Source of the DNA: Spartobacteria bacterium
GTDB taxonomy: Bacteria; Verrucomicrobiota; Verrucomicrobiia; Chthoniobacterales; UBA10450
DNA: 64,000 nucleotides
Assembly: GCA_003134785.1 (NCBI GenBank)
Contig: PLCN01000017.1
Span: 1 to 64,000, forward strand
Reading direction: 5' to 3'
Part shown: piece after piece, positions 46,561 through 56,390 of the stretch
Layout of the letters: the number at the start of each line of letters is the position of its first letter
How positions within the stretch are numbered: position 1 is the stretch's first letter
Made by a program: the position numbers and the translations under genes
The notes under the pieces: generated by a model
Databases searched by the model: none
What the model was told of the DNA's origin: nothing
The model's input: only the letters and a program-made list of their open reading frames with translations

Positions 46561-46634
46561 CGGAGTCTACGGGGCTCGAACCCGCAACCTCCGCCGTGAC
46601 AGGGCGGCGCTCTAACCAATTGAGCTAAGACTCC
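46561..46634 (-). tRNA. tRNA-Asp (anticodon GTC)
   Basis: On the minus strand the cloverleaf is complete: acceptor GGAGTCT/AGACTCC (7 bp), D-arm with TTAGCTCAATTGGTTAGAGC, anticodon loop CTGTCAC giving GTC, T-arm GCGGG-TTCGAGC-CCCGT and discriminator G. CCA is not encoded. Length 74 with the discriminator. Both the GTC anticodon and G73 discriminator fit aspartate. Confidence 0.97.
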
Positions 46635-46750: not shown

Positions 46751-48550
46751 ATGGCGCACGATGTTTTCATCTCTCATTCCACGCGGGACAAACCCGTCTC
46801 CGATGCGGTTTGCGCGGCACTGGAAAATGCCGGGATCCGCTGCTGGGTCGCGCCTCGCGATGTGCAGCCCGGCCGCTCATTTGCCGGGGAAATCACCCGC
46901 GCGATCCAGCAAAGCAAAGCGATGGTGCTGATCTTCTCCGCGAATTCAAACACCTCGGAACAGGTGCTTCGCGAAGTGCAGCTCGCGGTCGATTCGCAAT
47001 TGCACATCCTCCAATTCCGAATCGAGGAGGTGCTGCTGAACGACGATCTTAAATACTATCTCAGCACTCCGCACTGGCTCGACGCGTTGACCCCGCCGCT
47101 GGAGCAGCATCTCGAGCGTCTTTCAAACTCCATCAGGACATTGCTCGGAAAACCGGAGACGCGGGCTGAGGTTTCAGAAACGGCGCCTGCGGCCGAGAAA
47201 ATCAGAGCAAAGGCGACTGTCACCCGCGTCGCAAATGGAACTCACTTGGTTCCGGCTGCAGCGCCGTCAAAACGGTTTACGAAAAACTTTGGGCTGCCGG
47301 CAGTGGTGGGAGCGCTCGTTCTCGGCGGCATTGTTCTTGGAATAATTGTTCTTCGGCGAAGCGAACCGCCAAAAAGCGAAGTCGAACCACAAACGACCGC
47401 AACGTCCCCGAGCATTGCTCCTGAGACGCCGGCAAAATCGCCGGTGGCCAGCGACGAGAGTAGTCCAGCCGAGCCGACCCCCTCCGCAAAGGGAGCGCTG
47501 CTTTTCAGCGACAACTTCACCAGCGCAGCGCCAATTGTGAGGCCCCTCTTCGGTCCGAACGCGATGACCGTGGTGAACGCCAAGGGAGAAGGACAGATCA
47601 CAGGAAGGATTGCGGGAATTCTCCCCGCGATGTTCGACAAATTTCTCCTGGACGATTTCACTTTGGAGTGTGGGATGTGGGCCGAGGCCGTTCCACCCGG
47701 TGCGCGATACGGTTTCATTGTTCGCGCAGCCGATGTGACGAACGGTGGGATCGCGAAATACTACGCGCTTCTGCTCGACCCGAACGGCCACGTCGCGCAG
47801 ATGAGCTGGTGGGATGAGCGCTGGATGATGAACCCGGAACAGACGCTGCCGGCCGGCTTGCTGCGGGTGGGCCGAAAGAGTCGCGTGACGCTCGAAGCGC
47901 TTGGCCAGCGGTTCCGCGTTTTTATCAATGGCCGGTTCGCTGCTGAATTTTCCATGGAAGGGCTGAATGAAGGCCGAATAGGTCTCTGCCTTTCCGGCGC
48001 CGACTCAAAACCATGGACCGTCCACTTCGATAATTTCCAAATCTTTCTTCCGCCCGGGAAAGAAACGACCGAGGCGACTTCACTAGCTGCATCCGCTCCC
48101 ACTGCCGATCCGCGTAAACCTTTCCAGCGGTCCTGGGATTTTTCGGCAGGAATGTTGCACGATGTTCGCATGGAAGGCGTCGAGTTGGTCGACGCCAGCA
48201 TGTGGAAGATGACGGGAGGAAAACATCTGCGCTTTCTCACCGGCGGCCGGAGTTTCCTGGAAGCGACCTTTGATGTTCCCGAGGGCGCAGAACCACCGAC
48301 GCACCTCAGTGTTCGCCATCTTTCTTCATCGCCGGATGGCAAGAAACCCGGTTTTTCCCCGGTTCGAATTACGCTGAATGGCGGCGAAATTTTTCGCGCG
48401 AGTCCGGCCAAGAGCGGTTGGACCGACGATGAAATCGACTTGGGCCGCTATGTGCAGCCGGGAATAAACACATTGCTCTTTGAATACCTTGATGGCGCTC
48501 AGACCCATTACTGGCTCAAGTCATTCCGCGTGAGCAGCGGGAAACAGTGA
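46751..48550 (+). CDS. Membrane-anchored TIR-domain protein with LamG/DUF1080-like extracytoplasmic part
   Basis: 599 residues from ATG 46751 (a longer frame to 46697 overlaps nothing useful). The TIR domain (1-130) starts 'HDVFISHSTRDKPVSDAV', has box 2-like 'IRCWVAPRDVQPGRSFAG' and the putative catalytic Glu75 in 'SNTSEQVLREV', the place of the NADase glutamate. One membrane helix (about 181-201) precedes a Pro/Ser/Thr linker. Then comes a jelly-roll domain (about 245-430; 'FNDNFTS'-like opening, 'FRVFINGRFAAEF') and a final beta-sandwich (about 455-599). So an outside binding part is joined to an inside TIR. It is 75 bp upstream of mpa. Defence or signalling is inferred; the family is uncharacterised. 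Confidence 0.85.
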   Translation: MAHDVFISHSTRDKPVSDAVCAALENAGIRCWVAPRDVQPGRSFAGEITRAIQQSKAMVLIFSANSNTSEQVLREVQLAVDSQLHILQFRIEEVLLNDDLKYYLSTPHWLDALTPPLEQHLERLSNSIRTLLGKPETRAEVSETAPAAEKIRAKATVTRVANGTHLVPAAAPSKRFTKNFGLPAVVGALVLGGIVLGIIVLRRSEPPKSEVEPQTTATSPSIAPETPAKSPVASDESSPAEPTPSAKGALLFSDNFTSAAPIVRPLFGPNAMTVVNAKGEGQITGRIAGILPAMFDKFLLDDFTLECGMWAEAVPPGARYGFIVRAADVTNGGIAKYYALLLDPNGHVAQMSWWDERWMMNPEQTLPAGLLRVGRKSRVTLEALGQRFRVFINGRFAAEFSMEGLNEGRIGLCLSGADSKPWTVHFDNFQIFLPPGKETTEATSLAASAPTADPRKPFQRSWDFSAGMLHDVRMEGVELVDASMWKMTGGKHLRFLTGGRSFLEATFDVPEGAEPPTHLSVRHLSSSPDGKKPGFSPVRITLNGGEIFRASPAKSGWTDDEIDLGRYVQPGINTLLFEYLDGAQTHYWLKSFRVSSGKQ

Positions 48551-48624
48551 ATCGAAGTTCGCGCTCGAACTGCCCCTTCAGTTTGCGGCACGTCACGCTA
48601 GGCTTATAATCGAACAGCTTCCGA

Positions 48625-50316
48625 ATGAACGACGAGCGCAGCAAGAAATTCGAAACCCCGGACGATCGTCCGGGAAAGCGCGAGCTTAGTTTGCTCCAAG
48701 CCTTCGATCTGGTTCTCGCTTCTTTTCCCCCGGACGACCGAAATCTTCCCGAGTTGTTTCTGATCCGCTCGGAGATTGCCGCACAGGAGGAGACGATCGG
48801 TGAAGCACAGCAAATGATTGAGAAGCTTGAGGAAGTCATCAAGAAGGTGACCTCGCCGGCGAATCGCATCGGCACTTATCTCAGCAATCCAGCGCGCGAC
48901 ACGGCGCACATTGTCGTCGGCGGCGCGGATTATTATTGCAACGTCGATCCGCGCATCAGTCTGGCGAAGCTGAAGAAAGGGACGCGTGTTCTGGTCAACG
49001 AAGCCTACGTCATCGTGGGCGATCTTGGTTTCGAAACCGCCGGGCCCGTGACGAAAATCACGGAGGTGCTCGGCGCCGACCGGCTCCGAGTCGGCTCGGA
49101 ACACGGATTGCAATCGCTGATCCTCCAGCGTTCCGCCGAGCTGATGAAGGCGACACTCAAATCCGGCGATGAAGTTCGGGTCGACCCAAATTATCGCGTG
49201 GCGCTGGAAGTTCTGGCCCACCCGCAATCGCGGGAGCATTACCTCGACGACGTGCCGGAATTGCCCTGGGAAAAAGTGGGCGGGCAGGACCAGGCGCTGC
49301 AAGCGATCAAGGACGCGATCGAATTGCCGCTCATCCACGGCGAGCTTTTCCAAAAATTCCAGCACGCGACGCCGAAAGGATTTTTGCTCTACGGCCCGCC
49401 CGGCTGCGGCAAAACGCTCATCGGCAAAGCCACCGCTTACAACCTGACGAAGCAGCTTCGCGAGAAAACGGGCGACGAGATGAAGGAATATTTCATGCAC
49501 GTCAAAGGCCCGGAGATTTTGAATATGTGGGTGGGCGAATCGGAACGGATCGTGCGCGAGATTTTTTCGACCGCGCGCGAGAAACGCCGCGAGGGTTTCC
49601 TTCCATTTCTCTTTATCGACGAAGCGGAAAGCATTTTGGGCACACGCCGCGCCTCTCGCTATTCAAACATTCTCTCTACGCTCGTGCCGATGTTCTGCTC
49701 GGAGATGGATGGGATCGACTCGCTCCACGATGTGGTAATCATTCTCGCGTCGAATCGTGCCGACTTGATCGACCCGGCGATTCTTCGACCCGGCCGCATC
49801 GATCGGAAGATCAAGGTCAACCGGCCGAACAAGGAGGGCGCGCGCGAGATCTACCGGATTTATCTCACGAACGATCTTCCTTACGACGGCGCGCTGGCCA
49901 AGGAAGCCGGCAACATTGGGTCCGCGATCGATCGGCTGATCGAGCGCATCCTGGAAGTGCAGTTCGCACGGCGCGATGAAAATAAGTTTCTCGAGATTAC
50001 GTTGCGGAGCGGACGAAAGGAAATTCTTTACCGGAGCGATCTCCTGAGCGGAGCTATCATCGCGTCGATTGTCGAGCGGGCGAAAGGGATGGCGATCAAA
50101 CGCGCGATTGCGACGCAGGAAGATCAGGGAATCAGCGAGAGTGATTTGCAGCTTTCATTCATCGCCGAGTTCACCGAGAACGATATTTTTCCGCCGACCG
50201 ACATGACGGAAGATTGGTTCAAGCTGATCGATTACGATCCGGAGAACGTCGTCAAACTTTCGCCGGTGCGCCGGGATGAGCAGTCGAGACCGCCGGCGCG
50301 CGGCGGAGTGATCTAG
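48625..50316 (+). CDS. mpa: Proteasome-associated AAA ATPase (Mpa/ARC)
   Basis: 563 residues. A coiled coil (about 43-76), the part that binds Pup in mycobacteria, is followed by two OB-fold domains (about 77-205) and an AAA+ domain with Walker A 'GPPGCGKT' (257-264), Walker B 'FLFIDEAES' (328-336), pore loop 'MWVGESER' and arginine fingers in 'LRPGRIDRKIK'. It unfolds tagged proteins and feeds them to the 20S core. The C-terminus reads 'PPARGGVI' and lacks the QYL/hydrophobic-Tyr tail used by actinobacterial Mpa to dock on the proteasome. No 20S genes are in the window. Dop is 4.6 kb downstream. Confidence 0.93.
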   Translation: MNDERSKKFETPDDRPGKRELSLLQAFDLVLASFPPDDRNLPELFLIRSEIAAQEETIGEAQQMIEKLEEVIKKVTSPANRIGTYLSNPARDTAHIVVGGADYYCNVDPRISLAKLKKGTRVLVNEAYVIVGDLGFETAGPVTKITEVLGADRLRVGSEHGLQSLILQRSAELMKATLKSGDEVRVDPNYRVALEVLAHPQSREHYLDDVPELPWEKVGGQDQALQAIKDAIELPLIHGELFQKFQHATPKGFLLYGPPGCGKTLIGKATAYNLTKQLREKTGDEMKEYFMHVKGPEILNMWVGESERIVREIFSTAREKRREGFLPFLFIDEAESILGTRRASRYSNILSTLVPMFCSEMDGIDSLHDVVIILASNRADLIDPAILRPGRIDRKIKVNRPNKEGAREIYRIYLTNDLPYDGALAKEAGNIGSAIDRLIERILEVQFARRDENKFLEITLRSGRKEILYRSDLLSGAIIASIVERAKGMAIKRAIATQEDQGISESDLQLSFIAEFTENDIFPPTDMTEDWFKLIDYDPENVVKLSPVRRDEQSRPPARGGVI

Positions 50317-54875: not shown

Positions 54876-56390
54876 ATGACGAGGGTGTTTGGGATCGAGA
54901 CGGAATACGGAATCACGATTCAGGGCGCGGAATCGATCGATGTGGTGGCGGAATCGATCGAGTTGGTGCGCTCCTACACCGAGCACGGCGCGCATATGAA
55001 ATGGGATTATGCGCTCGAAGATCCGCATCGTGACGCGCGCGGATTCCGGGCGGCGGAGCTGCTCCAGGACACGGACGAATCGGCCTACTACGAGATCGAC
55101 AAGAGCCGGCCGCTGAGTTTCGAGGAGATCAAGAGCGACCTGGTGTTATCGAATGGCGCCCGGTTCTACAACGATCATGCGCACCCGGAATATTCGACGC
55201 CGGAATGCACGACGTTGCGGCAGCTGGTCGCGCACGAGAAAGCGGGCGAGCGGATCCTGGCGGAGTGCGCCCGCCGGAGAAGTTTGAAGTTACCGGCGGA
55301 CCACGAGGTGCGGTTATACAAGAACAACACCGATTTCGTCGGTCACAGCTATGGGTGCCACGATAATTATCTGATGCGGCGCGAAGTGCCGTGGGACCGA
55401 CTGGTCGCCGGCGTGCTTCCGTTCTTGATCACGCGCCAAATATTCGCCGGCGCCGGCAAAATCGGGATTGAGGCGGAAAGCGCGGCTGGTCAGCCCGGAG
55501 TGTTTCAAATTTCGCAACGCGCCGATTTCTTCCACGTCCTCGTCAGCATCGATACGATGAACAAGCGTCCTCTGGTCAACACGCGTGATGAACCGCACGC
55601 GGACGCGAGCATCTACCGCCGCTTTCACGTAATCCTCGGCGATTCGAATATGAGCGAGTGGGCGACGGCGTTGAAAGTCGGAACGACCGCGCTCGTTCTG
55701 GCCTTGATCGAGCGCGGGGAAGCGCCCCAGATCGAGATCGCGCAGCCGGTTAACGCCATGAAATCAATCAGCCGCGATCAGAATTACGATTGGATTCTCG
55801 AGCTGAGTGACGGGCGGAAGATTTCCGCGATCGATGTCCAGCGGCTTTACTTGAAAGCCGCCCAGAAAATCGCCGCCAAAGATACGGAAACGATTTGGCT
55901 GCTGCGCGAATGGGAGGCGGTGCTGAATGATCTCGAGCGGGACGCCGAGTTGACGCGTGATCGCGTCGATTGGGTAGCGAAGAAACTCTTGCTCGGTGCG
56001 TTTCGCGACGAGGAGAAACTTTCGTGGACCGATCCCTGGCTTCAGGCCATCGACCTCGAATATCACAACATTCTCCCGGACCAGGGCCTGTCTTACGAAT
56101 TGCTGCGACAGGGCTCGATGCGCAGCATCGTGAGTGAGGAGGAAATCAAGAGCGCTATCTTCGCGCCGCCGGAAACGACGCGCGCGTATTTTCGCGGCCG
56201 GTCTGTAGCACGATTCAACGACACGATCACATCGATTCAATGGGACGAGATTGCCTTCACGAATGGCACGCGTTCGCAACTGGTGACGCTGCCGGAGCCG
56301 GCGGGCGATGCGCGTCTTGAGACACTAAATGGGCTTGTCCGCGAAGAGACGGACTTCGAGGAATTTTTTTGCGGCTTGGCGCGTTATTAA
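54876..56390 (+). CDS. dop: Dop, deamidase/depupylase of the Pup (or UBact) system
   Basis: 504 residues. 'VFGIETEYGI' carries the metal-binding Glu8 and Glu10. 'LSNGARFYNDHAHPEYSTPE' holds the catalytic Asp100. 'RLYKNNTDFVGHSYGCHDNY' and 'QISQRADFF' follow as in the carboxylate-amine/Dop-PafA fold. A roughly 35-residue insertion (about 50-85) corresponds to the Dop-loop and is missing from PafA, so this is Dop rather than the ligase. It removes the modifier from tagged proteins and, where needed, deamidates its terminal Gln. PafA, the modifier gene and the proteasome are not seen here; Mpa is upstream. Confidence 0.93.
   Translation: MTRVFGIETEYGITIQGAESIDVVAESIELVRSYTEHGAHMKWDYALEDPHRDARGFRAAELLQDTDESAYYEIDKSRPLSFEEIKSDLVLSNGARFYNDHAHPEYSTPECTTLRQLVAHEKAGERILAECARRRSLKLPADHEVRLYKNNTDFVGHSYGCHDNYLMRREVPWDRLVAGVLPFLITRQIFAGAGKIGIEAESAAGQPGVFQISQRADFFHVLVSIDTMNKRPLVNTRDEPHADASIYRRFHVILGDSNMSEWATALKVGTTALVLALIERGEAPQIEIAQPVNAMKSISRDQNYDWILELSDGRKISAIDVQRLYLKAAQKIAAKDTETIWLLREWEAVLNDLERDAELTRDRVDWVAKKLLLGAFRDEEKLSWTDPWLQAIDLEYHNILPDQGLSYELLRQGSMRSIVSEEEIKSAIFAPPETTRAYFRGRSVARFNDTITSIQWDEIAFTNGTRSQLVTLPEPAGDARLETLNGLVREETDFEEFFCGLARY

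Follow-up and report, generated by a model that had tools for sequence, protein, structure and literature searches.

The gene at positions 46751–48550 of the window (the whole 64,000-nucleotide stretch of DNA that was analysed, from the genome of a soil bacterium of the Spartobacteria) encodes a protein that, judged from its sequence, is a member of a large, widespread and little-studied bacterial family in which a TIR domain and a transmembrane helix are constant and the outer modules are exchangeable. With a probability of roughly 55%, we consider it a receptor-like single-pass protein in which binding of a ligand on the outer side governs self-association of the TIR and probably also signalling by NAD-derived molecules. 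The features of the gene and its surroundings are the following.

46561..46634, minus strand: tRNA-Asp (GTC), ancestral divergent neighbour of mpa (tRNA-Asp adjoins mpa in the family genomes examined)
46751..48550, plus strand: TIR–transmembrane–ectodomain protein, 599 aa, stop codon included
46751..47149, plus strand: TIR domain, residues 1–133, predicted cytoplasmic (Pfam TIR_2, E 3.4e-20; AF2 pLDDT 83; Foldseek to TIR structures, E ~1e-7)
46961..46963, plus strand: codon of Gln71, where SARM1 and other TIRs have a ligand-binding Trp (alignment of relatives)
46973..46975, plus strand: codon of Glu75, at the catalytic Glu position of NADase TIRs (invariant in 106/106 aligned relatives)
47150..47287, plus strand: low-complexity cytoplasmic linker, residues 134–179 (from the translation; codon signal weak; frame break here in genome G001)
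47288..47353, plus strand: single transmembrane helix, residues 180–201 (hydropathy; position common to relatives)
47486..48070, plus strand: first outer beta domain, 3-keto-disaccharide-hydrolase/LamG-like jelly-roll, residues ~246–440 (PF06439, E 0.0039, below cut-off)
48119..48547, plus strand: second outer beta domain, CBM35-like beta-sandwich, residues ~457–599 (Foldseek, VIA-align; missing from the G001 orthologue)
48583..48610, plus strand: promoter-like element ahead of mpa, TTGCGG-N16-TATAAT (conserved in genus members whether or not they carry the TIR gene)
48625..50316, plus strand: Mpa/ARC-like proteasomal ATPase, a neighbour outside the TIR system

The reading frame starts with an ATG and encodes MAHDVFISHS, a beginning common to close relatives, and the codon-based coding signal extends over both outer domains. 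The layout originally predicted, namely a TIR domain, one helix, a jelly-roll and a second beta-domain, was borne out by the TIR_2 match, the helix at residues 180–201, the weak PF06439 match and the CBM35-like model; the Pfam scan of the protein gave no above-threshold match beyond TIR.

Membrane Topology

The relatives recovered in a scan of genomes (see below) were pooled with those from nearby genomes, giving 108 unique proteins, 106 of which are in the alignment. A transmembrane helix follows the TIR domain in 88 of the 108. The Lys and Arg residues flanking this helix average 3.56 on the N-terminal side vs 1.86 after it, with 62 proteins biased in the first direction and 11 in the other (sign test, p = 9e-10, a value that overstates independence because the proteins are related). 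This excess places the TIR inside the cell. In the window copy the flanks are balanced, with three positive residues on each side, so its own topology is taken from the family, by which it is predicted to be a transmembrane protein with one helix, the TIR inside and the other part outside. The proposal of a bacterial receptor with an internal TIR is supported by the family charge bias, by the swapping of outer domains between relatives and by the invariance of Glu75, and as an architecture the receptor reading is well supported at the level of sequence.

TIR Fold and Active Site

The TIR domain matches Pfam TIR_2 with 73 bits against a cut-off of 28, and its model, built with 11 relatives, matches the TIR structures of plant RUN1, SARM1, AbTir and SPARTA in Foldseek. 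With a sequence profile, a metazoan TIR-STING fusion, Hydra TRR-2, TLR6 and TLR1 were among the solved structures that matched best. Glu75, within the motif SEQVLREVQLA, is aligned to the Glu of WCLDEL, a motif of plant TIRs (RPV1). It was left out of the search patterns used to find relatives, and it is kept in 38/38 relatives in nearby genomes, in 80/80 named genome loci and in the whole pooled alignment, while several positions near it vary. The original prediction had named a lack of conservation of Glu75 in orthologues as a refuting outcome; the residue being invariant, the prediction passed this check on conservation.

The same prediction took Glu75 as the residue expected for NAD cleavage, and this stands only in part. 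The residue is present, but the Trp located four residues before it is replaced in every aligned relative (position 71 is Gln in 87, His in 16, Asn in two, Tyr in one and Trp in none). In SARM1, Trp and Glu at the positions equivalent to 71 and 75 bind the ligand, and the survey of Toshchakov and Neuwald (2020) warns that the frequency of the Glu is not always matched by activity (PMC7075850). Because of the replaced Trp, NAD cleavage by the window TIR is plausible but unsafe to assume.

The TIR domain and the jelly-roll are both under purifying selection, with dN/dS values between the window and G001 of 0.027 and 0.105, respectively, and 0.042 for mpa.

Outer Domains

Residues ~299–431 match PF06439 (3-keto-disaccharide hydrolase, formerly DUF1080) with 17.7 bits, under the gathering cut-off of 26.8, and the G001 orthologue gave independently E 0.0084 and 16.6 bits, also below the curated cut-off. 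The whole outer part was modelled from two sequences with a pLDDT of 40. The first jelly-roll was modelled poorly (pLDDT ~20–40), so its fold is without structural confirmation. The model of residues ~457–599, of low-to-moderate confidence (pLDDT ~40–78), resembles beta-sandwiches of the CBM35, CBM36 and CBM6 types; its comparison with CBM35 gave a Foldseek E of 4e-5 and a VIA-align Z of ~11 over 121/135 residues, with a TM score (target) of ~0.6. No Pfam match was obtained for this second domain. By these matches, the outer domains weakly resemble carbohydrate-active folds.

Among 83 genomes of the family, relatives of the outer domains were found only in G001, besides a short weak match in G025, and a search of 286 genomes of the class gave nothing convincing. 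The weak match L041 was inspected and was not taken as real. With so few relatives, a deep alignment of the outer domains was impossible.

A Family with Exchangeable Outer Modules

The window genome holds 13 TIR_2 matches, and five of them match the window protein, which is itself one of the five. One further TIR copy in this genome (L081:4024-4416, minus strand; G000:C15:109002-109415) is interrupted by a TGA stop. A scan with the TIR alignment over one genome per species detected 443 related stretches, and the best 80 of these come from Verrucomicrobia, Acidobacteria, Chloroflexi, Planctomycetes, Dadabacteria, Proteobacteria, Clostridia, Actinobacteria and others. Within the phylum the distribution is patchy, with 14 of the 387 sampled genomes positive at E 1e-15.

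When the tails of at least 80 aa were compared, the 87 tails fell into 42 BLAST groups, which may conceal remote kinship, and the matching 87 TIR domains fell into one. The tails include OmpH, SBP_bac_3, F5/8 type C, WD40, TPR, Sel1, SH3, PPC, PDZ and ankyrin modules; several of these types are typical of the periplasm, and WD40, TPR and ankyrin are usually cytoplasmic. The tail of one relative (L022:886-2217, minus strand) matches PF25302, the NAD glycohydrolase translocation F5/8 type C domain (E 9e-19), which one would not expect to find joined to a TIR.

The layout had been described as uncharacterised. It turned out to be common across bacterial phyla, and the statement holds for function in the open literature, where a search for studies of the TIR–transmembrane–outer layout or of a bacterial TIR-transmembrane receptor gave nothing specific; subscription papers were outside its scope, hence this is not proof of absence.

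The Locus beside mpa and the Exchange of the Outer Part

The neighbours of the TIR gene are the tRNA-Asp, on the minus strand 116 bp upstream, a 367-aa open reading frame without Pfam match, and mpa, on the same strand after a gap of 74 bp. The product of the latter is Mpa/ARC-like, with OB and AAA domains (457.7 bits vs a TIGR03689 cut-off of 504.75). The tRNA-Asp adjoins mpa in all 15 other family genomes examined, and by this comparison their arrangement is the ancestral one. The TIR gene is missing between them in 13 of those 15 (tblastn): within the genus, the window genome, G001 and G005 have it here, G002, G003, G004, G006 and G007 (5/8) do not, and the 8/8 further family genomes examined have the site without it.

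The stretch TTTGCGGC...TTATAAT directly before mpa is conserved in genomes carrying the TIR gene (the window genome G000, G001 and partly G005), and is also kept in G002, G004 and G007, where the TIR gene is missing. The promoter consensus scan did not list this element and the strict sigma-70 consensus is unmet, so we call it promoter-like from its conservation only. The TIR gene lies upstream of this element, which belongs to mpa, and the neighbourhood gives no reason to link both proteins. A functional partnership with Mpa and the Pup-proteasome system, with co-transcription of both genes, had been suggested by the common strand and the short gap; the adjacency is real but unconserved, with 5/7 of the genus members other than the window genome having tRNA-Asp next to mpa and no TIR gene. 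On this synteny and the conserved element we rejected the link, which we regard as most improbable, and the location of the TIR gene beside a proteasome gene appears to be a coincidence. Elsewhere in the window, a gene at 54876–56390 (plus strand) belongs to the Pup-ligase family and is closer to Dop than to PafA (488.9 bits vs a cut-off of 492.3), and its presence along with Mpa suggests that this verrucomicrobial genome encodes a Pup system.

At this site, G001 has the window's first outer domain, at 77% identity across 190 codons, and no second one. Its copy (L115:4001-5325) has a frame break in the linker, which may mean a dispensable gene or an error of assembly. G005 has a TIR with 86% identity to that of the window and an outer domain unrelated to the window's, which resembles that of a TIR protein from G040, a genome of another family. 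The three TIRs found beside mpa group together in a single clade (support 89/92; 92% of bootstrap trees). The simplest account of these sequences would be replacement of the outer part within a single locus; less simply, close TIR paralogues may have inserted twice, independently, at the mpa site.

Proposed Mechanism and Alternatives

The domain order, the transmembrane helix, the family topology, Glu75, the outer exchange and the lack of a conserved Mpa link are computational results, and on them we propose a model in which the N-terminal TIR would be cytoplasmic, the helix would cross the inner membrane and the two carbohydrate-binding-like beta domains would be periplasmic. A glycan or envelope ligand bound outside could alter clustering across the membrane and so bring the TIR domains together. 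Once assembled, the TIR domains would use Glu75 to cleave NAD or a related dinucleotide, and their output might be a nucleotide signal or NAD loss, in envelope stress or phage defence.

The enzymatic step would be dispensable if the TIR were only a scaffold on which proteins assemble, as happens in signalling through TLR adaptors, and Glu75 had a structural role. The replacement of the Trp in all relatives and the survey's caution on the Glu speak for it, as do the profile matches to the TIR-STING fusion, Hydra TRR-2, TLR6 and TLR1, several of which have no known enzymatic activity; we consider it unlikely, since Glu75 is invariant among variable neighbours and the predicted fold is near those of AbTir, SARM1, RUN1 and the SPARTA TIRs, all of them NAD-cleaving. 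TIR proteins are common defence effectors, and the protein might be a self-contained anti-phage abortive-infection device, which senses outside the envelope damage caused by a phage and kills through NAD loss. The presence or absence of the gene at one site between sister species, the exchange of outer domains and the partial hits to PADLOC models, in their TIR parts, agree with this idea, which we nevertheless hold to be rather unlikely: no other defence genes were detected among the ten window open reading frames scanned, a full-length match to a known system was not found, and the TIR is under strong purifying selection rather than changing fast.

A sensor of extracellular carbohydrate serving nutrition or the monitoring of the cell wall, and not defence, is a further possibility that we hold as a minority view. 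The carbohydrate-active folds outside and the SBP_bac_3 and OmpH tails of relatives, which are nutrient or envelope modules, favour it; against it, no carbohydrate-use genes adjoin in the segment examined, and most TIR outputs described to date belong to stress or defence. Work on the known bacterial TIR proteins has mostly dealt with soluble effectors whose trigger lies within the cell. If the receptor-like reading is true, an inner TIR with interchangeable outer sensors would mean that bacteria also read their envelope or surroundings by TIR signalling, and the origin of the Toll-like receptor architecture would become directly testable. The invariant Glu, with the Trp absent, would in turn provide a clear test of TIR active-site requirements.

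Relation to Known TIR Systems and Neighbouring Genes

Animal Toll-like and IL-1 receptors have, like the window protein, a single transmembrane helix between an outer sensing part and an inner TIR (PMC7075850), and the profile matches to TLR1, TLR6 and Hydra TRR-2 agree with this likeness. The order differs: in Toll-like receptors an N-terminal LRR ectodomain precedes the helix and the TIR is C-terminal, whereas in the window protein the TIR comes first. Neither LRR nor Ig domains were detected in it, it has Gln for the Trp, and the outer folds of its relatives vary. Each group of prokaryotic TIRs holds many architectures according to the available sections of the survey, in which a bacterial receptor with the TIR–transmembrane–outer layout is not described (PMC7075850). 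Dictyostelium TirC carries a TIR of bacterial origin tethered by a single hydrophobic helix, and the protein without this helix was toxic to amoebae; it differs from the window protein in that the helix is N-terminal and an outer sensor domain is not described (PMC13142454).

Thoeris ThsB, TIR-SAVED, SPARTA, Cap12/TIR-STING and AbTir share with the window protein the TIR fold and the Glu at the catalytic position, but the latter is a predicted membrane protein with an outer part and lacks Trp71. No ThsA, SAVED, Argonaute or STING partner is present at the window locus, and the Thoeris test found no adjacent thsA of the SIR2-SLOG, macro or TM type. In the search for known defence systems, the window protein matched PADLOC and NCBIfam models only partially, in TIR parts, and never over the full length, and for the ten window open reading frames PADLOC returned, beyond this, only AAA-part matches for Mpa. 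The window protein is best filed among bacterial TIR proteins and outside any named defence system.

Burroughs (2015) reportedly described nucleotide-centred TIR/SLOG/RyR conflict systems. The TIR link of such systems is cited in PMC9092222. Some relatives of the window protein adjoin genes of this kind: in raw locus counts, a 600-aa protein with SLOG-like motifs recurs at 11 loci, a TrkA-RyR channel-like protein at nine, a short SLOG-like protein at eight and an AAA-RyR protein at five, where the RyR and TrkA labels are Pfam matches and the SLOG label comes from motifs only, with no Pfam match. Examples are the SLOG-like membrane protein L103:5651-7501 (plus), the TrkA-RyR channel-like protein L135:848-2632 (minus), the short SLOG-like protein L149:6430-7062 (minus) and the AAA-RyR protein L147:2594-5062 (plus). 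These neighbours suggest a possible nucleotide-sensing cascade. An extended version of the receptor-like reading, which we regard as quite doubtful, would have phylum-spanning surface pattern receptors, arranged like inverted Toll-like receptors, whose Gln/His-site TIR makes a distinct NAD-derived messenger read by SLOG/RyR-type channels. The window copy differs from those relatives: none of the SLOG-like, TrkA-RyR or AAA-RyR genes adjoins it, no partner effector was found beside it, and the 600-aa SLOG-like protein has no match in its genome. The window genome encodes a single RyR-domain protein, in an 876-aa frame (L198; G000:C22:96581-96805), away from the TIR gene.
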